DNA of 42,356 nt. It comes from Terriglobia bacterium. Lineage in GTDB: Bacteria; Acidobacteriota; Terriglobia; Acidiferrales; UBA7541. Shown here in pieces: positions 22,456 through 42,246 of this stretch (position 1 is the first letter of the stretch; each line of letters opens with the position of its first letter). Location: the NCBI GenBank assembly GCA_020072765.1, contig JAIQGD010000071.1, forward strand, positions 1 to 42,356. Reading direction: 5' to 3'. A program made the translations under genes and the position numbers. Below the pieces are notes generated by a model. It did no database searches and was not told where the DNA came from. It worked only from the letters and a program-made list of their open reading frames with translations.

Positions 22456-23319
22456 ATGTGGCAGAGTCGAACTGTGGATTCGTCCTTGGTGACAGGCATC
22501 CTGGCCGTCGTGTTCGGATTGATTGTGGGCAGTTTTTTGAACGTATGCATCGTCCGAATTCCGGAGGGGAAATCGATCGTTTGGCCGGCTTCGGCATGTC
22601 CGAAGTGTGGCGCGGCGATCCGCCCGTACGACAACATCCCGGTGGTGAGCTATCTGCTGCTGCGGGGCAAATGCCGCGGCTGCCAGACGGCCATCTCGAG
22701 GATCTACCCGGCCGTGGAACTGCTGACGGCGGTATTGTTCTGGGGATGCTACCGGATGTTCGGGCCGACGCCGGAGGCTGTGAAGTGGGCGGTATTCTCG
22801 GCGGTGATGGTGGTGCTGGTGTTCACGGACCTGCGCGAACGGATCCTGCCGGATATGGTGAACTATCCGGGTCTGGCCGCGGGGCTTGGGTTCAGCCTCT
22901 TTATCCCGCCCGGGGACGGCACGGCACTCTGGATGGCAAATCGTCTATTCGGCTATTTTCCTCCGCCACGTGCGGCATCGTTCGCCGAAGCACTGCTCGG
23001 CGCGGCGCTCGGGGGAGGGCTGCTGTGGCTGGTCTCGGAAGTCTATTTCCGGCTGCGCAAGCGCGAGGGCATGGGACTCGGCGACGTGAAAATGATGCTG
23101 ATGACGGGCGCGTTTTTTGGAGCCAAGCGCACGCTGCTGACCATTTTTGCGGGCTCCCTGCTCGGGAGCCTGCTGGGAATCGCATTCATTCTCGCGCGGC
23201 GCAAGGGCTCCAATTACGAACTTCCCTTCGGAACGTTTCTCGGCCTGGCGGCGCTGCTGGTGGTCTTCTTTGGAACGCCGGTGGTGAACTGGTATCAGTC
23301 GCTGTTGATGGCCCGGTGA
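22456..23319 (+). CDS. pilD: Type IV prepilin peptidase / N-methyltransferase
   Basis: PilD cleaves the leader of type IV prepilins and pseudopilins after the conserved Gly and methylates the new N-terminus, in the inner membrane. The 287-residue protein begins with FGLIVGSFLNVCIVRIPEG, has the two cysteine pairs of the methyltransferase domain (CPKC and CRGC, residues ~48-75), and the aspartyl protease motifs FTDLRERILPD (~122-132) and GLGDVKMM (~210-217). Multiple transmembrane helices are visible. Length is normal. It opens a same-strand group with the histidine kinase (19 bp gap) and a sigma-54 activator, and serves the pilus genes at 31.8-38.7 kb and the prepilins at 41-42.2 kb. Confidence 0.95.
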   Translation: MWQSRTVDSSLVTGILAVVFGLIVGSFLNVCIVRIPEGKSIVWPASACPKCGAAIRPYDNIPVVSYLLLRGKCRGCQTAISRIYPAVELLTAVLFWGCYRMFGPTPEAVKWAVFSAVMVVLVFTDLRERILPDMVNYPGLAAGLGFSLFIPPGDGTALWMANRLFGYFPPPRAASFAEALLGAALGGGLLWLVSEVYFRLRKREGMGLGDVKMMLMTGAFFGAKRTLLTIFAGSLLGSLLGIAFILARRKGSNYELPFGTFLGLAALLVVFFGTPVVNWYQSLLMAR

Positions 23320-23338: not shown

Positions 23339-24769
23339 ATGAATTCTCCCTTTCCTCTGCACAACTTGACCCTGTCCCCCGGCGGACTGGCGGCCGTGAC
23401 CGTGATGCTGGCCATCCTGGTGGGCGGAAGCATTGCCCTGGCGGTGATGATGCGCCGGCTTCTGCGCCGGGACGCGGCCGCTCCGGACAAAGGGTGGAGC
23501 ACCCCCGGCGTCCGAGCGCAGAATGCGCCCGCGTTTGCGACCGCTTCGATGCAAGGCGTGATCGAGAAGCTGCGGGCGCAGGAAAAGGAACTGGCGCGGC
23601 TGCACATGCTGGCGCAGGAGCGCGCGCAGGAATCGGAACGCCTCACCGAGGAAGTCACGCGAAATATGCCCACGGGGCTGCTGCTGGTGAGCGCGACCGG
23701 CGCGATCAGCTCGGCCAATCCGGCCGCCGAGGATGCACTTTCCCTCCGGCCCATCCGCTACCGCTCGTACAAGGAGCTTCTGGGGGCCGACTCGGAACTG
23801 GCCCAGATGCTGGCGACGTGCCTGCGGGACGGAACGATGTTTCGCCGCAGCGAGATCGAGCACCAGACGCGCGAGGGCGAAACGCGGCATCTGGGCGTGA
23901 CGATCTCGCCCATCTACCATTCCAAGCGCTCGACGGGAGCGGCGCTGCGCACGCGAGCCTCGGATCTTGCGGTGCCGCCCGAAAACAAGGTGAGCGGGGC
24001 GCTGTGCCTGCTGAGCGATTTGACCGAGCTGGCCGCGCTGCAAAAGCAGATTCGCTGGAAGGAAAATCTAGCGGCGCTCGGGGAGATGTCCGCCGGCATC
24101 GCGCACGAGTTCAAGAACGCGCTGGCCACGATTTCCGGCTACGCGCAGATGATGCGCAGCGAACTCCCGCCCGGCGAGACGCGCGAATCGGCGGAGCGAA
24201 TTCTGAATCAAACGCGCGCGCTTACCCAGGTGGTGACGGAATTTCTGCGCTTCGCCAAGCCCCTGGAAATCTGCTACGAGGCCGTGCCCATGCAGGCGCT
24301 GGTGGAAGACGTGGCCACCGAGCTCCGGCAATCCATTCCCTCCTCGGCCATCCGGTGCGAAGGCGCGTTCGAGGATGTTCCCGGCGATGAAGCGTTGCTG
24401 CGGCAGGCGCTGCTCAACCTGGCGCGCAACGGAATGGAGGCCGCGCAAGCGGCCAGCCAGATGCCGTCGGTGACCATCTCCGGCTCGGTGGAAGAGCTCG
24501 CCACGCGGAAATGGCAGCGCATTTCGGTGGCGGATAATGGCCCGGGCATTCCGGAAGGCGACCTGCCCAAAATTTTTCTCCCGTTCTATACCACCAAGTC
24601 CCAGGGCACGGGGCTGGGCTTGGCGGTGGTGCAGAAGGTGGCGCTGCAGCACGGGGGCAGCATCGAGGCCCGCAACCGCCCGAGCGGAGGGGCGGAGTTC
24701 CTGCTGTGGTTACCTTTGCGGCAGGAGCCGTCGCGCGCGCTATTCCCCTCGGAAGCCGCCAGCATCTAA
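23339..24769 (+). CDS. PilS/NtrB-like sensor histidine kinase
   Basis: A 476-residue kinase: one N-terminal transmembrane helix (~16-38), a coiled-coil linker (~73-107), a PAS-like domain (~108-230), HisKA with phospho-acceptor H256 in GIAHEFKN, and a HATPase domain with N box LLNLARNGMEA (358-368), G1 DNGPGI (399-404) and G2 GTGLGLAV (423-430). All catalytic residues are present. Only one membrane segment and almost no periplasmic domain are seen, unlike the six-helix PilS of Pseudomonas, so the signal may be cytoplasmic or membrane-borne. It lies 19 bp after pilD and is separated from its likely response regulator by one small secreted-protein gene. Confidence 0.92.
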   Translation: MNSPFPLHNLTLSPGGLAAVTVMLAILVGGSIALAVMMRRLLRRDAAAPDKGWSTPGVRAQNAPAFATASMQGVIEKLRAQEKELARLHMLAQERAQESERLTEEVTRNMPTGLLLVSATGAISSANPAAEDALSLRPIRYRSYKELLGADSELAQMLATCLRDGTMFRRSEIEHQTREGETRHLGVTISPIYHSKRSTGAALRTRASDLAVPPENKVSGALCLLSDLTELAALQKQIRWKENLAALGEMSAGIAHEFKNALATISGYAQMMRSELPPGETRESAERILNQTRALTQVVTEFLRFAKPLEICYEAVPMQALVEDVATELRQSIPSSAIRCEGAFEDVPGDEALLRQALLNLARNGMEAAQAASQMPSVTISGSVEELATRKWQRISVADNGPGIPEGDLPKIFLPFYTTKSQGTGLGLAVVQKVALQHGGSIEARNRPSGGAEFLLWLPLRQEPSRALFPSEAASI

Positions 24770-24812
24770 ACTGGTAGAGGGCTTATCCCCCATAGCGTCC
24801 CAGGAGGCGCTT

Positions 24813-25412
24813 ATGATGCGTAGAATTCTGTGGTTGGCCGCGGCGGCGGCGATCTGTGTCTCTCCCCCCGCCCGCTGCCAGAGCCAGGATCAGCAGCAGG
24901 GCCAGGGTACTTCTCCCGGCGCGGCGGCAGCTCCCCCCGCGGCATCCGCGCCCGAGGAGTCACTCGGCGAAGCGGCGCGCCGTTTGCGGGAAAAGAAGAA
25001 AGAGATCCCCAAGGCCACGAAGGTTTTCACCAACGACAATCTTACGGGGGAACCTGCAGGAGCCCCGGCACCAGGGGGAACCGCTCCGGGCAAGGCCGAA
25101 GGGGCGGCGGCCGCGCCTTCCGGCGGCATGGACGAAGCGGGCTGGCGCGCGAAATTCGCTTCGCTGCGGCACAAGCTCGAACAGGATCAGGCCAATCTCG
25201 CCGTCCTGCAGCGCGAGCTCAACACGCTCAGCCTGCAAAGCTACACGGATCCCGTCAAGGCCATGCAGCAGCAATTCAGCCGCGAGGACATCAACAAGAA
25301 GAAGGCCGAGATTGATGCCTGCAACAAAGCCATCGCCGCGGACAAGCAAGCCATGGATGACGCCGAAACGGAGCTGCGCAAATCAGGTGGCGACGCCGGC
25401 TGGGCCCGCTAG
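24813..25412 (+). CDS. Small secreted coiled-coil protein between kinase and response regulator genes
   Basis: A 199-residue protein with a signal peptide (ILWLAAAAAICVSPPARCQS), a Gln/Gly/Ala/Pro-rich spacer, the motif SLGEAARRLREKKKEIPKAT followed by KVFTNDNL (residues ~50-77), a second low-complexity spacer, and a C-terminal coiled coil (LRHKLEQDQANLAVLQRELN; KKKAEIDACNKAIAADKQAM). The motif before KVFTNDNL seems to recur in several acidobacterial exported proteins, from memory. The frame is open further upstream, but AGGAGG at 24802-24807 sets the start at ATG 24813 (or 24816). Its position between kinase and regulator suggests a role in pilus regulation or assembly; this is inference. 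Confidence 0.8.
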   Translation: MMRRILWLAAAAAICVSPPARCQSQDQQQGQGTSPGAAAAPPAASAPEESLGEAARRLREKKKEIPKATKVFTNDNLTGEPAGAPAPGGTAPGKAEGAAAAPSGGMDEAGWRAKFASLRHKLEQDQANLAVLQRELNTLSLQSYTDPVKAMQQQFSREDINKKKAEIDACNKAIAADKQAMDDAETELRKSGGDAGWAR

Positions 25413-25423
25413 ATAATTTCGCC

Positions 25424-26812
25424 ATGGAACCCGTCCTCCTTGTCGAAGACAAAGCCGAGCTGAGGGCCATGCTCCACAAGGCGCTGGACCGCTTCGGCTA
25501 CGCCGTCGAAGAGGCCCCGGACGGCGAGGCGGCGATCGAGAAAGTGCGCAGCCGCCGCTATCTGCTGGTTCTTTCCGACTTGAAACTTCCCGGCCATTCC
25601 GGCCTCGACGTGCTGCGCGAGGCCAAACGCGCCGAGCCCGCCCTGCCCTTTATCCTCATCACCGCTTACGGCTCGGTGGAAGACGCCGTCACCGCCATGA
25701 AAGAGGGCGCCTTCGATTTCATTCAGAAGCCGGTGGACCTGGACCACCTGAAACTGCTGCTGGACCGCGCGGCCGGCCAACAGGAACTCCTGCGCGAGAA
25801 TCTGCTGCTGCGCGAAGAGTACGCCGCGCGCTACGGTTTCCCGCGCATCGTCGGGGAACACCCGGCGATGAAAGAGGCGAGCCAGATGACCCAGCGGGCC
25901 GCCGCGACCGATTCCACGGTATTGCTGCTGGGCGAAAGCGGCACCGGCAAGGAACTGTTTGCCCGGGCGATTCATCACCTGAGCCCCCGGGCCGAGCATC
26001 CCTTCGTGGCGCTGAACTGCGCGGCGATTCCCGAGGGGCTGGTCGAGAACGAACTGTTCGGCCACGAGCGCGGAGCGTATACGGGGGCCGGCGCGCGCAA
26101 GATCGGCAAGCTCGAGCTGGCGCACCGGGGAACGCTGTTCCTGGACGAAATCGGCGAGTTGCCTCTCAGCGTGCAGGGCAAATTGTTGCGCGTGATCGAG
26201 GAGCGGAGCTTCGACCGCGTCGGCGGCACGCAGCAGATCGACGTGAGCGTGCGCATTGTGACGGCCACGAACAAGGACCTGCGCGCCGCCATCGCCGATA
26301 AAACCTTCCGCGAGGACCTCTACTTCCGCATTGCCACCGTGCCGATCACGATTCCGCCGCTGCGCGACCGCGGCGACGACGTGTTGCTGCTCGCCGAACA
26401 CTTCCTCGCGCGCTTCCGGCGGGAGTTTCGCAAACCCTCCCTGGCGTTGACCCGGGACGCGTGCGAGCGCCTGCAAACCTACCCCTGGCCGGGGAACGTC
26501 CGCGAACTGCAGAACGCCATCGAGCGCGCCGCGATCCTGGCCGCTGGCTCCGAGATCGACGCCGGCGCCCTGCAGTTGCTGGCCGCCAAACCCGCGCCCT
26601 CCGAATTGCCCCAGGGCATGCTCGCGGAGCAGTTTCTATGGGATGGGCCGCTGGAAGAAGTTTCCCAGCGCGCCGTGGCGCACGTCGAGCGCTTCAAGAT
26701 CCAGGACGCCTTGCGCGCCTCGAAATGGAACAAAACGCGCGCCGCGGAAAAGCTCGGCGTCTCCTACAAAACCCTCCTGCACAAAATCCGCACCTTCGGC
26801 CTGGAAAACTAG
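25424..26812 (+). CDS. PilR/NtrC-like sigma-54-dependent response regulator
   Basis: A 462-residue activator with the full NtrC layout: receiver domain with phospho-acceptor D52 in VLSDLKLPG and K102 in QKP; AAA+ domain with Walker A GESGTGK (170-176), sigma-54 contact loop GAYTGA (217-222, Tyr in place of the usual Phe), Walker B LFLDEIGE (238-245) and arginine-rich PPLRDRGDD; and a Fis-type helix-turn-helix at the C-terminus (~424-462, AAEKLGVSYKTLLHKIRTFG). It activates sigma-54 RNA polymerase at -24/-12 promoters. A matching promoter precedes the lead prepilin gene in this window (42231-42246). It lies 11 bp after the secreted-protein gene, so it is co-transcribed with the kinase. Confidence 0.93.
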   Translation: MEPVLLVEDKAELRAMLHKALDRFGYAVEEAPDGEAAIEKVRSRRYLLVLSDLKLPGHSGLDVLREAKRAEPALPFILITAYGSVEDAVTAMKEGAFDFIQKPVDLDHLKLLLDRAAGQQELLRENLLLREEYAARYGFPRIVGEHPAMKEASQMTQRAAATDSTVLLLGESGTGKELFARAIHHLSPRAEHPFVALNCAAIPEGLVENELFGHERGAYTGAGARKIGKLELAHRGTLFLDEIGELPLSVQGKLLRVIEERSFDRVGGTQQIDVSVRIVTATNKDLRAAIADKTFREDLYFRIATVPITIPPLRDRGDDVLLLAEHFLARFRREFRKPSLALTRDACERLQTYPWPGNVRELQNAIERAAILAAGSEIDAGALQLLAAKPAPSELPQGMLAEQFLWDGPLEEVSQRAVAHVERFKIQDALRASKWNKTRAAEKLGVSYKTLLHKIRTFGLEN

Positions 26813-27139: not shown

Positions 27140-27172
27140 GTGGCACAGCCACTCCTGGCTGTGCTCTTTTGC
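27140..27172. repeat. Palindromic repeat, CACAGCCA-family copy A
   Basis: GCACAGCCA-CTCC-TGGCTGTGC is a 9-bp-arm hairpin. The reverse complement of the whole unit recurs at 31778-31808 with a 29-bp exact match. Confidence 0.8.
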
Positions 27173-31777: not shown

Positions 31778-31808
31778 GCAAGAGCACAGCCAGGAGTGGC
31801 TGTGCCAC
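31778..31808. repeat. Palindromic repeat, CACAGCCA-family copy B (inverted)
   Basis: Reverse complement of the 27140-27172 element, with 29 consecutive matching bases. A neighbouring palindrome CAGCCGCGGTTGGCTG (about 31740-31755) resembles the same family. Confidence 0.8.
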
Positions 31809-31857: not shown

Positions 31858-32244
31858 TCAACGAACTTCGACGGTCAGGCTGGCGGACTTGGTGTTGCCG
31901 GCGGCATCGGTGACGGTGAGCGTGTAGGTGGTGGTCTTCTGCGGAGAGGCCTGGACGCAGCGGCTGTAGGAGGGCCAGACGGCGTTGGGCTGCGGCACCA
32001 GCGTGACGGTTTTGGCGTTGGAGACGCCGTAGCACAGATCAACTTCCTCGCCGCGGTGCACCAAGCCGGGGCTGGCGTAGAAGGCCAGTGCGGCGCGCTC
32101 CTCGATCTCGCGGTTCTGCGCCGCGCGCGACCAGAACACCCAGCCGACATAGCCGAGCGCCAGCGCCAGCACCACCAGCGACGCAATCACGTAGTTGCGA
32201 ATCCCTTTGCCGGGGGCCGGGTCCGGGGTGGAATCGGTCAGCAT
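31858..32244 (-). CDS. Membrane-anchored Ig-like domain protein at the end of the pil cluster
   Basis: A 128-residue protein: a short cytoplasmic N-terminus, one transmembrane helix (YVIASLVVLALALGYVGWVF, ~18-37), then a single beta-sandwich (FYASPGLVHRGEEVDLCYGV; SPQKTTTYTLTVTDAAGNTK) like the Ig/PKD-type domains used in surface proteins. Two cysteines (C71 and C96 approximately) could form a disulfide. AAGGAGAG before ATG 32244 fixes the start; upstream open frame belongs to the overlapping pseudopilin gene. It is 28 bp after the pseudopilin stop and probably in the same transcript, so a pilus-associated envelope role is plausible; this is inference. Confidence 0.72.
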   Translation of the reverse strand: MLTDSTPDPAPGKGIRNYVIASLVVLALALGYVGWVFWSRAAQNREIEERAALAFYASPGLVHRGEEVDLCYGVSNAKTVTLVPQPNAVWPSYSRCVQASPQKTTTYTLTVTDAAGNTKSASLTVEVR

Positions 32245-32272
32245 GGACAAACTCTCCTTCCCGCGGGCTGCG

Positions 32273-33199
32273 TCACTGGTGCGGGGTCTGGAAAGGCACG
32301 GACTGCGGCGCGGGTGCGCCGCCCAGGCCACTCGGGCCGCCTGGGCCGCCGGGCGCAGGACTGGTGCCGATACCTCCCGGGCCGATGGGCAGTCCCGGTT
32401 GGCCCGGCTGTGCCCCCTGCGGCGCGAGGCCCTGCTGAACGGCGCGCGCCTGGTCTTTGAGCGGGTTCCAGATAAACTCCCAATCGCCGTACTTCTTGCC
32501 GCCATGGTAGACCTTGAGCGACGGCCGATCGGTCTTGCTGCCCCCTCCGACCCCGGACAGAAACGCTCCCAGGACAGGCCCGTCCACGGGTCCGGTGGGC
32601 TGTGGCTGGCTTCCTGACGCGCCAGGCTGTCCTAACGCCGTCCCTGGGCCTGCGGGAGGATTCTGGGCCATGCCAGGGGCATTTCCGGTGCCCCCTCCGG
32701 GGCCGCCCAGAGGGGCTCCCGGCCCGGGCTGGGCCCCGCCAGCGCCAGCGGGAAGCTGGCCGCCGTTCATATCCATCAGGGCCATTTGCTGCAGCGTGGC
32801 ATACCGGACGCTGCCGATGATCTGCCCCGCGGCATTCACGTAAATCATGCGCCAGGCCCCGTCCGGGCGGTTCATGGGATCCTGATAGGCCGCCAGGCGC
32901 AGGAAATGGAGTTCGGGGAGCCCCTTTTGCAGCTCCTCAACCGTCTGCGGGTAGTGTCCGGTCTTGTGGTAGTAGAGGCGAATGGCGCGGACATTCTGGC
33001 GGCCCCGCCAGATCATCTCCTCCTCGCGCTGGCGGCGGCCCTGGGTGGCCATATTCCGCAGGACCACTTGGGAAGCAATGACCATCACCAGGACCAGACC
33101 CAGCGCCATCAGAAGGGCGTAACCGGACTCGCTGGGCCGCCTTGCACGGTGAGTCACGTCCACGCTCGTAGCCTGTTTGATCGCGGCGGTTGGCGGCAA
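32273..33199 (-). CDS. Pseudopilin-like protein with Gly/Pro-rich tail (TTG start)
   Basis: A 308-residue protein. The N-terminus carries a class III-type leader: basic residues, then SGYALLMALGLVLVMVIASQ, in the style of PilX/GspK/GspG proteins, with cleavage expected after G26. The usual Glu5 is missing (YALLM), as in GspK-like minor pseudopilins. Then an Arg-rich helix and a GspG-like core (AIRLYYHKTGHYPQTVEELQ, then QDPMNRPDGAWRMIYV). The remaining ~160 residues are strongly Gly/Pro/Ala/Gln-rich and probably disordered, with a short ordered segment KTDRPSLKVYHGGKKYGDWE. The TTG at 33199 has GGGAGGA upstream. Its substrate for pilus assembly is likely PilD (22456). Confidence 0.8.
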   Translation of the reverse strand: MPPTAAIKQATSVDVTHRARRPSESGYALLMALGLVLVMVIASQVVLRNMATQGRRQREEEMIWRGRQNVRAIRLYYHKTGHYPQTVEELQKGLPELHFLRLAAYQDPMNRPDGAWRMIYVNAAGQIIGSVRYATLQQMALMDMNGGQLPAGAGGAQPGPGAPLGGPGGGTGNAPGMAQNPPAGPGTALGQPGASGSQPQPTGPVDGPVLGAFLSGVGGGSKTDRPSLKVYHGGKKYGDWEFIWNPLKDQARAVQQGLAPQGAQPGQPGLPIGPGGIGTSPAPGGPGGPSGLGGAPAPQSVPFQTPHQ

Positions 33200-33210
33200 G
33201 GCAGTCCTCC

Positions 33211-33744
33211 CTAGTTGGCGCCCTGGTCCGGCCCCTGCATCATGGGGACGATGGCGTGACGCCCGCTGGACAACTCTTCGACATCGGCTGAATCGCTGCC
33301 GATGTGCACCAGGCGGTAACCGCCCAGAAAGGTGTCGCCTTCCGGGATGATCAACACATCTTCCCCGCTGACAAAGAACGCCACGGGTTTCCCGCGGCCC
33401 CGCTGGGCGTGCCCGAAAAATTGTGCGGGAACTTGAACGGGCGGAGGCGGCGTCGGCACGACCACTACGGGCACCACTTTCCCGACGGGCCGCACCGGCT
33501 TGGGCGCCGGCGGCGGGGCGGCCACGAAAATATTTCGGCGCGAGCCCGCGTATTGGATCTTCTGAATCTGGTCGAGAAGCTGCAGGCGCAACTGGGGCTC
33601 GCGCACGTCGAGCGGCTGGAACTTCGTTTCCGAGCCGGCTATGCCCGGAAGAGCCGAACCCGGGCCCTGCATGCGGAAATACAGGATGGCGGCGAGCAGG
33701 ACGATCAGCCCTGCGAAGAGGTAGAGTTCGGTGCGCCGGGACAT
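33211..33744 (-). CDS. PilP-like inner-membrane lipoprotein-position protein
   Basis: A 177-residue protein with one N-terminal membrane helix (LYLFAGLIVLLAAILYF), a segment predicted helical (QLRLQLLDQIQKIQYAGSRR), a proline-rich linker (APPPAPKPVRPVGKVVPVVV), and a compact beta domain (PAQFFGHAQRGRGKPVAFFV; LIIPEGDTFLGGYRLVHIGS). Position right after pilM, pilN and pilO and the small beta domain fit PilP, which links the inner-membrane platform to the secretin. There is no lipobox cysteine, so the anchor is a helix rather than lipid. Sequence similarity to PilP is weak, so the name is by context. Only 3 bp separate it from pilO. Confidence 0.72.
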   Translation of the reverse strand: MSRRTELYLFAGLIVLLAAILYFRMQGPGSALPGIAGSETKFQPLDVREPQLRLQLLDQIQKIQYAGSRRNIFVAAPPPAPKPVRPVGKVVPVVVVPTPPPPVQVPAQFFGHAQRGRGKPVAFFVSGEDVLIIPEGDTFLGGYRLVHIGSDSADVEELSSGRHAIVPMMQGPDQGAN

Positions 33745-33747
33745 CGC

Positions 33748-34299
33748 TCAGGTCCTGAAATACGTGTGCAGCGTAACTTCCAGCCGGATGCCGCCCTCCG
33801 AGACGGAGGCCAGGTGCAGGCTATCCAACAGGTAGAGATTCTTCGAGCGCTGCAGGCCGTTGATGAAATCCATCACCTGCGGATAATCGGCGGTGACGCT
33901 GGTGGTGATGGAAATTTCCGCCACGCCGCGCTCCTGGAGGTCGTTCTGCTTGAAGGCGAATCCCGGCGTCTTCACGCCCGCTTTCGAGGCAATGCCGCTC
34001 AGGTCGGCCTCAATCCGGGAATAGCCCGTGGCCGCGTCCAGAAACGACCCGCGATAAAAGGCGTCGCAGTCCTTGCCCACCTGCGGGAGCGAGACACGGA
34101 TTTTATCGCCGCGCACGACATCGGCGCGCAGCAACCGGGCCTGCCGAGCCAGTTGATCCCGCTGCGCGCGCATCGCCTCGGGCGCCTGGCGGGACATTCG
34201 CACCAGGAACAGCGCCAGCCCGAGATCGGCCGCCCCCAGCAGGACGAGCGCGATCGCCGTGTATTTCTTCCAGGTTTGCCAGCTGCGGAAGCCGCTCAT
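33748..34299 (-). CDS. pilO: PilO-like pilus assembly protein
   Basis: A 183-residue protein with one N-terminal membrane helix (YTAIALVLLGAADLGLALFL, ~13-32), a coiled coil (MRAQRDQLARQARLLRADVV), and a ferredoxin-like domain (YSRIEADLSGIASKAGVKTP; EISITTSVTADYPQVMDFIN; LDSLHLASVSEGGIRLEVTL). This is the PilO/GspM layout. PilO pairs with PilN in the inner-membrane platform. It overlaps the pilN stop by 4 bp (ATGA). Confidence 0.85.
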   Translation of the reverse strand: MSGFRSWQTWKKYTAIALVLLGAADLGLALFLVRMSRQAPEAMRAQRDQLARQARLLRADVVRGDKIRVSLPQVGKDCDAFYRGSFLDAATGYSRIEADLSGIASKAGVKTPGFAFKQNDLQERGVAEISITTSVTADYPQVMDFINGLQRSKNLYLLDSLHLASVSEGGIRLEVTLHTYFRT

Positions 34300-34862
34300 A
34301 TCGTCGAATACCAGACCGTCAGATGCAGGATGACTTTGTCGGACGCGCCGGGCTGTTCCGGCCGGCGTTCGTCCTTCACCACCAGGCCCGAAAACATTTT
34401 CGCCTTCTCGATGGCCTCGAGGAACTGGATCTTGCTGGCGTCGCTCTCCGCCCCGACCTCCAGCGTGAGTTCGGCGCGGCCGTCCGCCAGGCGCGGCGCA
34501 ATACTGACCACGCGGACACCCGGCGGCAGGGTTTTTTCCAGATCCATGAAGATTCTCGTCCAGGGGAAGCTGCGGGCGTCAATCAGGGAGTTCAGAAAGG
34601 CGGCGCGGCCCAGGACACCCTGCGCCGCCGCGGAGTGGAAGTAGGCGTCGAGCTCCTGCTGTTTTCGGCTGTCGCTTCGGATTTGCGCCTGCCAGCGGCT
34701 GGTATCGGCGCGCAGTTCCCGATTGCCGCGCCACGACTGGTAGGCCGCGTGGGAGAGCAGCACGAGCGCCACCACGCCGAGCGTGCCCGCCCCACCGGTC
34801 AAGGCAAGGAACGGCCGGTGATTGGCTTGCGGCGCCGTCGCGAGATTGAGATGCAGCTTCAT
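34296..34862 (-). CDS. pilN: PilN-like pilus assembly protein
   Basis: A 188-residue protein starting MKLHLNLATAPQANHRPFLA. The short N-terminal sequence LHLNLATAP is typical of PilN, which docks it to PilM. A membrane helix follows (GTLGVVALVLLSHAAYQSWR), then a coiled coil and a ferredoxin-like domain (FMDLEKTLPPGVRVVSIAPR; AELTLEVGAESDASKIQFLE; EKAKMFSGLVV). ATG 34862 is preferred over a GTG at 34877 because it gives the canonical N-terminus. It lies 45 bp after the pilM stop and overlaps pilO by 4 bp. Confidence 0.87.
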   Translation of the reverse strand: MKLHLNLATAPQANHRPFLALTGGAGTLGVVALVLLSHAAYQSWRGNRELRADTSRWQAQIRSDSRKQQELDAYFHSAAAQGVLGRAAFLNSLIDARSFPWTRIFMDLEKTLPPGVRVVSIAPRLADGRAELTLEVGAESDASKIQFLEAIEKAKMFSGLVVKDERRPEQPGASDKVILHLTVWYSTI

Positions 34863-34907
34863 GGCGGTACCAGGCACGCCGGCCGGATTATGCGGCCAAG
34901 CGAACGC

Positions 34908-35897
34908 TCAAGATCCTCCGTTCATCATCCAGCCAGCCAGTGCATCGAGGCCGTTGGGGATCAGGTCCAGCGCGGCGCGATCGAGCGCCTGCGCCCCTTC
35001 GGCTTCGGCCAGCGAGCCGGCGCGAATCTTCAATTCGGCGCTCACGGCGCTTTGAAAAACGTCTTCCCTGCCGCCGAAACCGGCCAGCCGGGCGCGGTCA
35101 ATGGGCTGGCCCCAGGTGTCCTGGTAATAGGCGACGGCCGGAAAAATCTCATCGAGCACGGCCTGCGGGTCGAGCCGCGCGGCCTCCGCCGGCATCTCGG
35201 TGGAGCGGTAAACGCACAGGCCGGTGCCGTGGACAATGACCGTGGTCAACACCCTGCCGCAGAGACGGATCAGCAGGGTCGCTCCGCGCTCTTCCAGAAG
35301 CGGCAACGACGCCAGCGTCGAACTCAGCACCACTCCGGCATGGCCGCCCACCGACTCGATCAGCTCTTCGTATTCGCGGAGAACCCGCTGGCGCGCCACC
35401 GCGGTGACCACTTCCAGAGTTCCCTGGCGGCCACTCTGGCGCGTCCAGGAGACCACGGTTTCGTCCACATCGAACGGGACACTCTTCTTCAGGCGCCAGC
35501 GCAACAGCTGCAAGGCCTCCTCGCGCCGCCGGGGCAGCGTCTCAAACGGCAGGAGGAAGACGCGCACGACGGGGTCGGGCACGAGCAGCGCCAAGGGCGC
35601 GCCGCGCAGGGGAACGCGGCTCAGAACTCGGCGGAGAGCCGCCAGGACAGCCTCCCGTTGGGTGATGTTCACTTCCAGCGGCGACGGCGTCACGGCTCCG
35701 GCCGGCAGCGGCTCAACCGCCCCGCTCTCCAGCCGTCCGCGCGCGCTCCCGCAGCGGCCCGCCGCGACGTGGTCGGAGGCAATCTCGATCACCAGCGCCG
35801 GATGGGGCATGGCGTGCAACCACCGCCCCATGCGCCGCAGCAGGCCCGGCTGCTGCCATGAGCCCGGCGACGTTTCCAGACCCGTGTGGCTAGTCAA
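34908..35897 (-). CDS. pilM: PilM-like actin-fold pilus assembly protein (TTG start)
   Basis: A 329-residue cytoplasmic protein with an actin/FtsA-like fold that holds PilN at the membrane. Recognisable parts are ALVIEIASDHVAAGRC, LLVPDPVVRVFLLPFETLPR, RRREEALQLLRWRLKKSVPF and the phosphate-binding-like AVARQRVLREYEELIESVGG. It is less conserved than many PilMs (EIASDHVAAGRC in place of the usual LDIG) and lacks an obvious nucleotide-binding DxG signature. The TTG at 35897 overlaps the pilB stop by 8 bp and has AAGGTGA upstream. Confidence 0.82.
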   Translation of the reverse strand: MTSHTGLETSPGSWQQPGLLRRMGRWLHAMPHPALVIEIASDHVAAGRCGSARGRLESGAVEPLPAGAVTPSPLEVNITQREAVLAALRRVLSRVPLRGAPLALLVPDPVVRVFLLPFETLPRRREEALQLLRWRLKKSVPFDVDETVVSWTRQSGRQGTLEVVTAVARQRVLREYEELIESVGGHAGVVLSSTLASLPLLEERGATLLIRLCGRVLTTVIVHGTGLCVYRSTEMPAEAARLDPQAVLDEIFPAVAYYQDTWGQPIDRARLAGFGGREDVFQSAVSAELKIRAGSLAEAEGAQALDRAALDLIPNGLDALAGWMMNGGS

Positions 35898-37518
35898 GGA
35901 AGGTCACCTTATTGATCTCGCGCAGCGTGGTCAATCCCGCATGCACTTTGCGCAGGCCGGATTCGCGCAGAAAGACCATGCCCTCGGCGCGCGCCGTGCG
36001 CTTGATTTCCGACGTGGGCCGGCGGTCCACAATCATTTCGCGAATGCGGTCGGAAAGATCGAGCAGTTCGGTGATGGCCGAGCGGCCGTGGTAGCCGCTG
36101 CCGGAACACTCCAGGCAGCCCGCGCCCTCGTAAAACGGCACGCGCCCCCACTCGGCGGGATCGAGACCCGATTCCTGCAGGATCGCGGCGGAATAGTTCA
36201 CGCGCTTCTTGCAGTGCTCGCAAATCACGCGCACCAGCCGCTGCGCCATGATGCAGTTCAGCGCGGAAACGAAATTGTAGGGCTCGACGCCCATGTTGAT
36301 GAAGCGGCCGATCACGTCGGTGACGTTGTTGGCGTGGACCGTGGTGAAAACCAGATGTCCGGTGAGCGCCGAGTTGATGGCGATCTGCGCGGTTTCCTGA
36401 TCGCGGATTTCGCCGACCATGATTTTGTCCGGGTCGTGCCGCAGAATCGAGCGCAGTCCGCGCGCGAAGGTCAGGCCCTTCTTCTCGTTCACGGGAATCT
36501 GGGTGATGCCGCGGACCTGGTATTCCACCGGGTCCTCGATGGTGATGATTTTGTCCTCGTCGTTCTTGATCTCGTTGATGGCGGCGTATAGCGTGGTGGT
36601 CTTGCCGGAGCCGGTGGGCCCGGTGACCAGCACCATGCCGTAGGGCTCGTGGATGTAGCGGCGGAAGCGCGCCAGTTCGTCGGCTTCGAATCCCACGACG
36701 TCGAGCGTGAGATTGTGAAACTTTTCGCTCAACGTCTCCTTGTCGAGCACGCGGAGCACGGCGTCTTCCCCGAAGACCGACGGCATGATGGAAACGCGGA
36801 AATCGACGAAGCGGCCCTTGTACCGCACGCGGAAGCGGCCGTCCTGAGGGATGCGGCGCTCGGCGATGTCCAGCTCGCTCATCACCTTGATGCGCGACAG
36901 GATGGTGGCGTGCCAGTCCTTGGCGAGCGGCTGCATGGCGTATTGCAGGGCGCCGTCGATGCGGTACTTCACGGCCACTTCGGCGTCGCGCGTTTCGATG
37001 TGGATGTCGCTGGCGCGGCGCTCCAGGGCGGTGAAGATGACGGTGTCCACCAGACGCACCACGGGACTCACGCCGGTCTCGCGCGTGAGCCGCTCCATGG
37101 AAATATTCTCGTCGCCCTCTTCTTCGCTGACCACCTGCAGGGTGAACCCTTCGGTGGCCTGGTCGAGCACGCGCTGCGACTGCTCGGTCCTCTTGAGCAG
37201 GTCGGCGATCTGCGAGGCGGTGGCGACCTTGATCTGCAGGCGCTTGCCGAGCAGCAGCGCAAGTTCGTCGGTCTGTTGCAACTGGCTGGGATCGGCCAGG
37301 GCCACCACCAGCACGGAGTCGTGGGCTTCGATGGGGACGAAGTTGTAGCGGAACATCAGCTCGGCGGGGATGCTGCGGAATAATTCCGGATCGATGCGCT
37401 GCTCGCGCAGATCGACGAAGGCGCAGCGGTAGCGCTCGGCCAGCCGCCGGGCTTGCTCGTGCTCGGCCGCCGCGTCGGTGACGCCGGCAGGAATCGGATT
37501 ATTGCCGCTTGTGGCCAT
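35890..37518 (-). CDS. pilB: Type IV pilus / type II secretion extension ATPase (PilB/GspE family)
   Basis: A 542-residue hexameric ATPase powering pilus extension. N-terminal GspE N-domain (~20-110), then the ATPase core: Asp box SDIHIETRDAEVAVKYRID (170-188), Walker A GPTGSGKTTT (300-309), ITIEDPVEYQV (326-335), Walker B-type IMVGEIRDQETA, and His box GHLVFTTVHAN. The zinc tetracysteine motif is C433xxC436 with C468xxC471, as in PilB and GspE and unlike PilT. All catalytic residues are intact. ATG 37518 is chosen because it matches the family N-terminus; the frame is open further upstream in the pilC gene. Gaps: 5 bp from pilC, 8-bp overlap with pilM. Confidence 0.96.
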   Translation of the reverse strand: MATSGNNPIPAGVTDAAAEHEQARRLAERYRCAFVDLREQRIDPELFRSIPAELMFRYNFVPIEAHDSVLVVALADPSQLQQTDELALLLGKRLQIKVATASQIADLLKRTEQSQRVLDQATEGFTLQVVSEEEGDENISMERLTRETGVSPVVRLVDTVIFTALERRASDIHIETRDAEVAVKYRIDGALQYAMQPLAKDWHATILSRIKVMSELDIAERRIPQDGRFRVRYKGRFVDFRVSIMPSVFGEDAVLRVLDKETLSEKFHNLTLDVVGFEADELARFRRYIHEPYGMVLVTGPTGSGKTTTLYAAINEIKNDEDKIITIEDPVEYQVRGITQIPVNEKKGLTFARGLRSILRHDPDKIMVGEIRDQETAQIAINSALTGHLVFTTVHANNVTDVIGRFINMGVEPYNFVSALNCIMAQRLVRVICEHCKKRVNYSAAILQESGLDPAEWGRVPFYEGAGCLECSGSGYHGRSAITELLDLSDRIREMIVDRRPTSEIKRTARAEGMVFLRESGLRKVHAGLTTLREINKVTFLD

Positions 37519-37523
37519 CGAGT

Positions 37524-38738
37524 CTATCGCCCGCCTCCACCGGCTTGCAGGGAAAACATGGGCAGATATAGCGCGATCAAGATGAAGCCTACCACAACGG
37601 CCATGACCACCAAAATCACGATGGGAATCCAGGTCAGCGTGCGCTGCAGCCGCGTATTCACTTCTTCTTCGTAGAATTCGGCCACGCTGGTCAGCATGGC
37701 CGCCAAGGCTCCGGACGCCTCTCCCACTTCGATCATTTCCAGCGCCAGGCCCGGAATCAGGTGCGTTTCGGCCAGGCCGGCGTGCAGCGATTGCCCTTCC
37801 TTGACGCGGGCGGCCGCCTGCTCGACCGTGGTCGCCAGCAGGGGGCTGCCGATCGCGGCGGCCGAGGTGTGCAGGGCCGGGACTAGGGGCGTCCCGCCTC
37901 CCAGCAGCGTCGAAAGCGTGCGCACAAATTGTGCCAGGTGAGCCTTCACCCATACATCTCCCAGCAGCGGCACGCGCGGTTTGAATCGGTCGACGGCCAG
38001 GGCTCCGGCCCCCGAGCGCGTCCAGAACAGCACGACGACGGCGCCCAGGGCCACGGCGGCGACGAGAGCCAGAAAATAGTTTCGCAGCGGCAGGGCCACC
38101 GCCAGCAGAATGCGCGTAGGAGCCGGCAGCGCGATATCGAGTTCGTGATAGAGCGACGCGTATTGGGGCATGGCGTAGGTGACCACAAAGGTGACGATGA
38201 GCAGGGCTGCGGCCACCAGCACCGCGGGGTAAATCAACGCGGTCATCAGGCGGCTGCGGAAGCCCGTGGTGACGCGCAGGTACCCGATATATTGTTCGAG
38301 GACGCCGCTGAGGTTTCCGCTCCGCTCGCCCGCCCCCACCGCCGTGACATACACCAGCGGAAACGATCCCTGCGCCTCCAGCGCTTCCGACAGCGACGCG
38401 CCGGCGCGAACGCGCTCCCGCACCTCGCCCAGAATCGGACGAAGCCTAGGCGCTGCCGCGCGCTCGGCCAGCAGATCCAAGGCCCTAAGAATCGGCAGGC
38501 CCGCCTTGATCAGCGTGTTGAACTGCTGGTTAAAAATTAGGAAGTCATCGGGGCGGACCATGCGGCTGCGGCGTCCCGGACCGAGCCGCTCCAGCAAATC
38601 GAAATGATGGCGCACGGCAAAGACGTAGTAGCCCCGGTCGGCCAGCTTCTGCCGGGCCTCGTCCTCCGACTGCGCCGTCTCGACCTGGTCAAAGATGCGG
38701 CCGGAGGCATCGCCTACTTTGCAGACAAATTCCGCCAT
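37524..38738 (-). CDS. pilC: Type IV pilus / type II secretion inner-membrane platform protein (PilC/GspF family)
   Basis: A 404-residue membrane protein with two tandem GspF domains. The first ends in FPLVYVTAVGAGERSGNLSG and the second in IPGLALEMIEVGEASGALAA, the characteristic G-E-x-S-G repeats. Membrane helices are LIYPAVLVAAALLIVTFVVT (~167-186), a helix near 215-235, and the C-terminal WIPIVILVVMAVVVGFILIA. The start ATG 38738 gives MAEFVCKVGDASGRIFDQVE, typical of PilC/GspF. It heads the assembly operon (pilC-pilB-pilM-pilN-pilO-pilP-like-pseudopilin-Ig-like). Confidence 0.95.
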   Translation of the reverse strand: MAEFVCKVGDASGRIFDQVETAQSEDEARQKLADRGYYVFAVRHHFDLLERLGPGRRSRMVRPDDFLIFNQQFNTLIKAGLPILRALDLLAERAAAPRLRPILGEVRERVRAGASLSEALEAQGSFPLVYVTAVGAGERSGNLSGVLEQYIGYLRVTTGFRSRLMTALIYPAVLVAAALLIVTFVVTYAMPQYASLYHELDIALPAPTRILLAVALPLRNYFLALVAAVALGAVVVLFWTRSGAGALAVDRFKPRVPLLGDVWVKAHLAQFVRTLSTLLGGGTPLVPALHTSAAAIGSPLLATTVEQAAARVKEGQSLHAGLAETHLIPGLALEMIEVGEASGALAAMLTSVAEFYEEEVNTRLQRTLTWIPIVILVVMAVVVGFILIALYLPMFSLQAGGGGR

Positions 38739-41003: not shown

Positions 41004-41552
41004 CTACTCGACCGGTTGCAGCGCGTCGCACGCCGCGACGGTTGCCGCAACGACGCCGCTTGGATCGAAATGGATTACGCCTGGGGTGTCGCTGCAGAAG
41101 CTGCGGTGGCCGGTAACGCCGAGCACCAGCGGAGTTCCTGTAATCAGGTAACCCCCATACCCTGGAGCGTTACAGCCAGGGGCCAGCGCTGTGTTAACGG
41201 TCTGCCCCGTGTAGGCGAAGGCGTACCCGCTCTTTTGATTCGGCGCCGTGGAGACGATCGGATCTCCCAACTCAGACAAATCGCAGGTCGCCGGGCCGGT
41301 TCCGCTCAAGGCTACCAGGCTTGGGGGGTAGCCGTTTGCATAGGTCGTGGAGTAGGCGATGGCGGCACTGGTGACGCTGCGAATACTGGCCGCCGCGGAG
41401 GCTTCGTTGGCGGCCATGCGCGCCCGCAGAAAGCTGGGAACAGCAATGGATGCGATGATCAGGATGATGGCTACAACAATGAGGAGTTCAATCAGGGAAA
41501 ATCCGGATTCGCTTTTCAGACCAGTTGCGCCGAATTTGGGAAGGGGCCTCAT
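41004..41552 (-). CDS. Type IV prepilin, second (probably minor) subunit
   Basis: A 182-residue prepilin. The leader (MRPLPKFGATGLKSESG, 17 residues) ends at G17, followed by FSLIELLIVVAIILIIASIA with Glu5 conserved, and then FLRARMAANEASAAASIRSV, typical of Acidobacteria and delta-proteobacterial pilins. The C-terminal globular part has Cys pairs (C~89, C~128, C~153, C~175) likely forming disulfides, and short hydrophobic strands. The gene sits just after a strong intrinsic terminator that follows the other prepilin, so it likely has its own weak promoter or depends on read-through. PilD (22456) should process it. Confidence 0.92.
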   Translation of the reverse strand: MRPLPKFGATGLKSESGFSLIELLIVVAIILIIASIAVPSFLRARMAANEASAAASIRSVTSAAIAYSTTYANGYPPSLVALSGTGPATCDLSELGDPIVSTAPNQKSGYAFAYTGQTVNTALAPGCNAPGYGGYLITGTPLVLGVTGHRSFCSDTPGVIHFDPSGVVAATVAACDALQPVE

Positions 41553-41636: not shown

Positions 41637-42167
41637 CTAGTTCCCGAGTGGTACGGCCTTGCTATCGCAACCGCCGCTGGTACCGTCAACCCCGATGGCC
41701 GCGTTGCTCTGCCGGATGACGTTCGACGCGTCATTGCAGTAGTACACGGTCCCGGTGCTCGTGGTCACCGGATTAGCGTTGAATATAAACATGTCCGAGG
41801 CGCCTGCAGCTGTGCATCCCTTGGGAATGCTCGTAACCAGATTGGTACCTGCGGTCAAAAGGAAGCTATAACCGGACTTCGAGCCAGACGCCAAGGTGGC
41901 ATCAATCAAACTCGCGGCGTCGCAATTCGGGGTCGCATTGTAAGACAACTGCGCCATCGTTGTCGGAAAACCGTCTCCGTACGTGCTGCTGTACATCACC
42001 GAGGCGCTGCCCAAGGTGCGCAGCGACGCGGCGGCGGACGACTGGTTGGCGGCAATCTTGGCGCGCAGCAGGTTCGGGATGGCGATGGCCGCGATGATCA
42101 GAATGATCGCCACGACGATCAGCAACTCAATCAACGAAAAGCCCTTCTCTCTCTTGTTCAGTTTCAT
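41637..42167 (-). CDS. pilA: Type IV prepilin, probably the major subunit
   Basis: A 176-residue prepilin with a short leader (MKLNKREKG, 9 residues) and mature N-terminus FSLIELLIVVAIILIIAAIA, Glu5 conserved. NLLRAKIAANQSSAAASLRT completes the helix. The globular domain has cysteines C~86, C~127, C~146 and C~167 (two probable disulfides), and Ser/Thr-rich loops. AGGAGATA 7 nt before ATG 42167 is a strong ribosome-binding site; an upstream in-frame extension to 42302 crosses the sigma-54 promoter and is rejected. It is transcribed from the sigma-54-type promoter at 42231-42246 and ends at the terminator 41580-41614. Confidence 0.95.
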   Translation of the reverse strand: MKLNKREKGFSLIELLIVVAIILIIAAIAIPNLLRAKIAANQSSAAASLRTLGSASVMYSSTYGDGFPTTMAQLSYNATPNCDAASLIDATLASGSKSGYSFLLTAGTNLVTSIPKGCTAAGASDMFIFNANPVTTSTGTVYYCNDASNVIRQSNAAIGVDGTSGGCDSKAVPLGN

Positions 42168-42230: not shown

Positions 42231-42246
42231 TGCAAGGCCGATGCCA
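42231..42246 (-). promoter_or_regulatory. Sigma-54 (-24/-12) promoter of pilA
   Basis: On the minus strand: TGGCAT-CGGCC-TTGCA. It matches TGGCAC-N5-TTGCW at 10 of 11 defined positions, and the invariant GG and GC are exactly 10 bp apart. Expected transcription start is near 42219, giving a ~50-nt leader before the pilA ATG at 42167. The PilR-like activator at 25424-26812 is the obvious candidate activator. Confidence 0.85.

Follow-up and report, generated by a model that had tools for sequence, protein, structure and literature searches.

Gene X, at positions 24813-25412 on the forward strand of the window (the whole 42,356-nucleotide stretch analyzed here, from a Terriglobia bacterium of the Acidobacteriota), belongs to an unnamed family of secreted proteins with a two-helix hairpin. 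The features of its sequence and of its gene neighborhoods suggest, with a probability of roughly 0.5, that its product is exported to the periplasm and serves there as an accessory protein of the type IV pilus (or pseudopilus) machinery of acidobacteria. Linkage to genes for A24 prepilin peptidases and pilins is the most constant feature of X, which makes a periplasmic accessory role in the pilus the best guess; since its relatives often lie beside type IV pilus genes, a helper of the pilus is more probable than a private sensor of the kinase encoded upstream. The components of type IV pili have been catalogued mostly from proteobacteria, and the X family is tied to pilus genes across many families of Acidobacteriota, a common soil phylum. 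If the above reading is true, X would represent a component or regulator of the pilus that is specific to this lineage and has been overlooked by annotation.

Sequence and structural features of the X family

The frame that the first-pass annotation had placed between a kinase gene and a response regulator gene, with the motifs SLGEAARRLREKKK and KVFTNDNL, was found as quoted, and so were its flanking gaps: the kinase gene ends at 24769, 43 bp before X, and the regulator gene starts at 25424, 11 bp after it. The frame appears to be real rather than a chance one, because matches to it were recovered in 38 of the 41 genomes of a search among relatives (the window's own genome counted, and some of the matches being paralogues). 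Its features are as follows:

24813-25412, forward strand: gene X, secreted two-helix-hairpin protein of an unnamed family, 199 aa; the start may be 24816
24802-24807, forward strand: Shine-Dalgarno-like AGGAGG of X, recognized by eye
24813-24878, forward strand: signal peptide of X, with probable cleavage after Cys22 (ARC-Q), by eye and hydropathy
24960-25046, forward strand: N-terminal motif SLGEAARRLREKKKEIPKATKVFTNDNLT, residues 50-78, with Ala55 and Arg56 invariant in alignment A1
25047-25133, forward strand: Ala/Pro/Gly-rich linker, residues 79-107, mostly of low pLDDT
25134-25382, forward strand: helical hairpin, residues 108-145 and 154-190, with the turn just past a conserved YxDP
25386-25409, forward strand: C-terminal signature GGDAGWAR, residues 192-199

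The signal peptide, also noted in the first-pass annotation, is apparent by eye and in the hydropathy profile, with no dedicated predictor behind the call. Downstream of it, the basic motif SLGEAARRLREKKK...KVFTNDNL forms the N-terminal part of the protein. Alignment A1 (28 sequences) shows that the second ATG, at 24816, is the start in most homologues, and that Ala55, Arg56, Tyr144, Pro147 and Trp197 are invariant. Most of the homologues have in common the signal peptide and the motif S-L-x-x-A-A-R-x-x-R...V-F-T-N-D-N-L, followed by a linker of variable length and a C-terminal part that closes with G-G-D-P-G-W-A-R. In a phylum-wide alignment of 55 sequences (A3) no column is invariant, and both signatures persist in the consensus. 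A lipoprotein is unlikely because Cys22 is not conserved: it is missing from many homologues, and no lipobox is discernible by eye in PARC. A minor pilin defined by the N-methylation motif was likewise rejected, as the full protein has no match to PF07963.

The earlier label of a coiled-coil protein fits the AlphaFold2 model (53 sequences; mean pLDDT 71.9, pTM 0.50), in which residues 108-145 and 154-190 form two helices with a pLDDT of about 95-98 in mid-helix and 77-80 at the turn. A short helix at residues 51-63 reaches a pLDDT of about 70, and most of the remaining chain outside the hairpin is modeled with low confidence. No Pfam or NCBIfam model matches X above its curated cut-off, and the 55 members of A3 show scattered coiled-coil matches of which none recurs family-wide, any one Pfam family being found in at most 6/55 and any one NCBIfam family in at most 12/55. 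A sequence search of solved structures returned five weak matches of coiled-coil type, none convincing (best E 0.041), and Foldseek with the hairpin model gave no hits at E<=0.001. When queried with the hairpin alone, Foldseek places hairpins of the membrane fusion proteins AcrA and MacA among its top hits (E 0.34 or worse); X is too small to accommodate the remaining domains of these proteins, and we read the likeness as that of a generic coiled coil. A literature search with general pilus terms, covering few subscription papers, yielded no description of X.

A profile of the motif recovers two clear members in the window's genome, namely X and a gene on contig C67, the other six matches having E-values of 0.066 or worse. 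Elsewhere, X-like genes stand paired side by side in six loci (L044, L047, L058, L061, L064 and L071), and some of their C-terminal ends differ.

The adjacent kinase and regulator are distinct from PilS-PilR

Three genes flank X in the same orientation:

22456-23319, forward strand: A24 prepilin peptidase, the sole A24_N match in the window's genome
23339-24769, forward strand: histidine kinase, not PilS, with one membrane helix, PAS, HisKA and HATPase_c
25424-26812, forward strand: NtrC-type response regulator with receiver, sigma-54 activator and Fis-type HTH domains

Two published accounts describe PilS of Pseudomonas as having six membrane segments and PilR as acting with sigma-54 at pilA (PMC6058289), and PilS as sensing PilA in the membrane (PMC5979040). 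The window's genes share with the PilS-PilR systems found by pilA in Pseudomonas and others the combination of a kinase and a sigma-54-type activator near pilus genes. Unlike PilS with its six segments (PMC6058289), the window's kinase has the single membrane helix that had been noted earlier, a hydrophobic stretch at residues 10-28 (19-residue Kyte-Doolittle window), and practically no periplasmic part. It is thus rejected as a PilS with a six-helix membrane domain.

The first-pass annotation took the pair for PilS-PilR with a gene inserted between them, a view that was not supported: a separate pair holds the PilS-PilR place in the same genome. On contig C141 of this genome (G000), a PilC-like gene is followed by a kinase with a multi-helix, PilS-like N-terminus and by a regulator; a pilin gene lies 2.5 kb beyond the latter, and its product shares 84% identity with the window's pilin. 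When 12 genomes were queried with the regulator and kinase of the window, second pairs of this kind emerged near pilin genes in six (G000, G001, G014, G026, G027 and G030), with regulators 38-40% and kinases 27-31% identical to those of the window; G001 has the two kinds of pair on a single contig, separated by about 14 kb. The pilin gene follows the second pair within about 0.2-0.3 kb in four of the genomes, within 2.5 kb in G000 and within 3.4 kb in G027; in all five cases where the sequence extends far enough, a PilC-like gene lies upstream of the kinase. On the same simple scale the kinases near pilin genes have six (L251, L254), five (L252, L256) or four (L255) hydrophobic stretches in their N-terminal membrane domain. 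The place next to pilC and pilA is hence occupied by a different pair, and the closest gene in which Pfam recognizes a pilin motif is 14.2 kb from the end of the window's regulator gene. The window's pair is therefore not PilS-PilR; a PilS-like pair exists separately in the genome.

Gene order in the lineage of the window

A single contig scan with one C-terminal pattern provided 63 loci of named genomes, which lean to close relatives because they were found by similarity to X. The order A24-kinase-X-regulator is present in 48/63, so that X is retained between kinase and regulator in related genomes. The remainder comprise three loci, two of which lie close to a contig end, with kinase, X and regulator and no A24 detected, one with X and the regulator at a contig end, eight with A24 upstream of X and neither full kinase nor regulator, and three (L058, L071, L097) with none of the three genes. 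One locus with the same gene order, L075, is titled Betaproteobacteria, the other 62 being titled acidobacterial; it is probably a mislabelled bin. In many loci HemW and, by eye, genes resembling ubiE and aroB likewise remain in the vicinity of X or A24, suggesting that gene order here may simply change slowly.

The main rival to a pilus accessory role, possible though in our estimation improbable, is that X is an exported co-sensor that binds the kinase's short outer tail or its membrane helix and thereby sets the output to the NtrC-type regulator. The placement of X between the two genes, with gaps of just 43 and 11 bp, the full-length kinase upstream and regulator downstream in 51/63 loci, and a window kinase almost devoid of a periplasmic part are all in keeping with this; in contrast, 11/63 loci have X with neither a full kinase nor a regulator. 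Among these 11, absence is unproven in L064, whose contig stops 52 bp past X, and in L058, with only 1.6 kb upstream; six (L037, L051, L070, L084, L094 and L096) have A24 at most 1 kb upstream and no kinase match whatsoever. X is present in eight genomes (G014, G026, G027, G030, G033, G112, G123 and G160), some of them incomplete drafts (G027 and G030 included), in which no orthologue of either partner was found elsewhere. The best matches there were 41-48% identical for the regulator, as against 86% for its orthologue in G001, and 31-38% for the kinase, barring a stub in G160. A further point against a co-sensor comes from other classes, where kinase and X are 2.2-5 kb apart with pilin-like genes in between (L143, L145, L148 and L153). 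The earlier suggestion that X carries a signal to the window's kinase is therefore weakened, as X is retained in genomes that yielded no orthologue of kinase or regulator.

Five loci (L061, L064, L137, L139 and L140) retain a membrane-PAS stub of the kinase between A24 and X. In four, the stub has a membrane helix and a PAS domain that passes the Pfam cut-off, with neither HisKA nor HATPase matched; the L137 stub scores just below the cut-offs for PAS and HisKA and lacks HATPase. Other genes separate the stub from X in L061 and L064, where X is about 5 kb downstream. Retention of the stub would fit a contact between it and X, as a co-sensor might have. These lineages, with the catalytic domains of the kinase lost and X intact, offer a natural test of X apart from the phosphorelay. 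A more speculative and quite unlikely proposal is that A24, the membrane-PAS protein and X act as a separate envelope module monitoring the condition of prepilins or minor pilins in the inner membrane, with kinase and regulator as a replaceable output; several lineages would then run the module with the PAS stub only, or with X alone.

Phyletic patterns and pilin-like neighbors

X has matches in 58 of the 149 genomes of a phylum sample searched with the first profile, and a broad profile detects the family in 56 of 80 phylum genomes at E<=1e-3 (several matches being weak or partial). The pilus markers A24 and PilM_2 are found in 79/80 and 78/80, the latter being a loose marker that also matches 9/14 control genomes. 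These figures imply that X is not an obligatory part of the pilus, and with markers in 78-79 of 80 genomes, co-occurrence has no power to link X to pili.

Gene neighborhoods are more informative. We considered a distant set of 35 loci (L137-L171) from 25 other families, some cut by contig ends and three (L137, L139, L140) from the same class as the window; the 149-genome sample has matches in 57 other genomes, of which these loci represent 35, mostly the best scoring. On the same strand as X, an A24 gene lies no more than 7 kb upstream in 12/35, a regulator sharing 51-57% identity with that of the window lies up to 1 kb downstream in 11/35, and a pilin-like ORF occurs on one side or the other at up to 7 kb in 19/35; 24/35 show at least one of these neighbors and 11/35 show none. 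Pilin-like ORFs occur in 12/20 X-centred stretches (15 families) and in 0/20 control stretches, each 14.5 kb long and taken from the same contigs (Fisher p 4.5e-5, with related genomes counted as independent); the controls are also devoid of A24, and have a single regulator match (40% identity) and a single kinase match (21% identity). Pfam tests of ten neighbor genes of the distant loci identified PilX_N (L143, L145), N_methyl (L145) and GspH (L157), gave no match in L171, L156 and L146, and assigned those in L149 (two) and L155 to RelA/SpoT, phosphotransferase and dehydrogenase families. In L138 and L151 a set of pilin-like genes is visible by eye downstream of X. The alternative suggestion of the first-pass annotation, a pilus accessory factor, thus gains support from gene neighborhood, and from that source only.

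These patterns also bear on a further reading, which we consider unlikely, whereby X is a member of a general-purpose family of acidobacterial envelope proteins that are put to many uses (tethering of wall or membrane, for example) and its adjacency to pilus genes is inherited gene order. Paralogues do occur in other settings, with five such loci (L136, L172-L175) lacking A24, regulator and pilin-like neighbors; the slow change of gene order around X is in line with this reading, as is the scatter of neighbor labels on an unrooted tree of the 55 members, which has many weak branches and on which the labels are less scattered than in shuffles. The contrast of 12/20 to 0/20 for pilin-like neighbors, in 15 families and either upstream or downstream of X, argues against it. 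That X is a mere translational spacer, or a recently acquired orphan devoid of function, appears very improbable. It diverges faster than its neighbors (about 41-57% identity within the genus vs about 80-87% for the regulator), as such a gene might, but its motif and C-terminus are conserved in many families and it occurs in 58/149 phylum genomes. The link of the family to prepilin peptidase and minor pilin genes, seen in many families of the phylum, is probably old.

A possible role for X in pilus assembly

If X is a pilus accessory protein, it would be exported via Sec, its basic N-terminal motif might bind one partner at the inner membrane or close to it, the flexible linker could bridge a distance, and a second partner might be bound by the hairpin and its GWxR end. 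So bound, X may tether or steady minor pilins or the assembly platform; its encoding with an A24 peptidase, a one-helix PAS kinase and an NtrC-type regulator would allow pilus processing, X and control to be co-produced.

PilP, a periplasmic adaptor of the pilus alignment complex, would be comparable in the proposed plan only, that of a short N-terminal binding motif, a linker and a folded end; X differs in being an all-helical hairpin with no Pfam match above cut-off. Minor pilin operons contain genes such as FimU, PilV, PilW, PilX and PilY1 (some of the names being given in PMC5979040). In other acidobacterial classes X stands before or after such sets, and it differs from minor pilins in lacking the N-methylation motif and in having a helical hairpin and a signal peptide of the ordinary kind.

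Other pilus genes, sigma-54-like sites and a repeat

The window contains further pilus-related features on the reverse strand:

35890-37953, reverse strand: T2SSE/PilB-type ATPase
37524-38738, reverse strand: T2SSF/PilC-type membrane protein
41004-41552, reverse strand: second pilin
41637-42167, reverse strand: pilin with N-methylation motif
42231-42246, reverse strand: sigma-54-like site TGGCATCGGCCTTGCA, beginning 79 bp before the pilin ATG

The region 31858-38738 on this strand comprises pilus or type II secretion genes (T2SSE, T2SSF, and weak matches to PilM_2 and T2SSM_b) along with several small genes that have no assignment. Sigma-54-like sites total 19 in the window vs 19.2 expected, a chance level; the site at 42231-42246 is one of only two with a single mismatch. 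At up to two mismatches, such sites precede 16/32 pilin starts (this site counted, and several genes of one genome being included among the starts), 14 of them at 77-91 bp from the ATG, against an expectation of 0.07 sites per 250 bp. The window's regulator has a sigma-54 domain, and the pilin sites could belong to either regulator. At one mismatch or fewer, no sites were found before A24 (0/54), kinase (0/51) or X (0/62), and 1/52 before the regulator; with two mismatches there are 4, 0, 5 and 5, respectively, about 0.05 being expected per stretch. Control of these four genes by sigma-54 was rejected, the sites before A24, kinase and X not being above chance.

A palindromic repeat, GGCACAGCCACTCCTGGCTGTGC, occurs in the window at 27141-27164 (forward strand) and 31784-31807 (reverse strand). 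The genome has 40 copies at up to two mismatches, vs 0 for the reversed control, and several variants change both arms with pairing retained (by eye), as in a stem-loop REP-like element.
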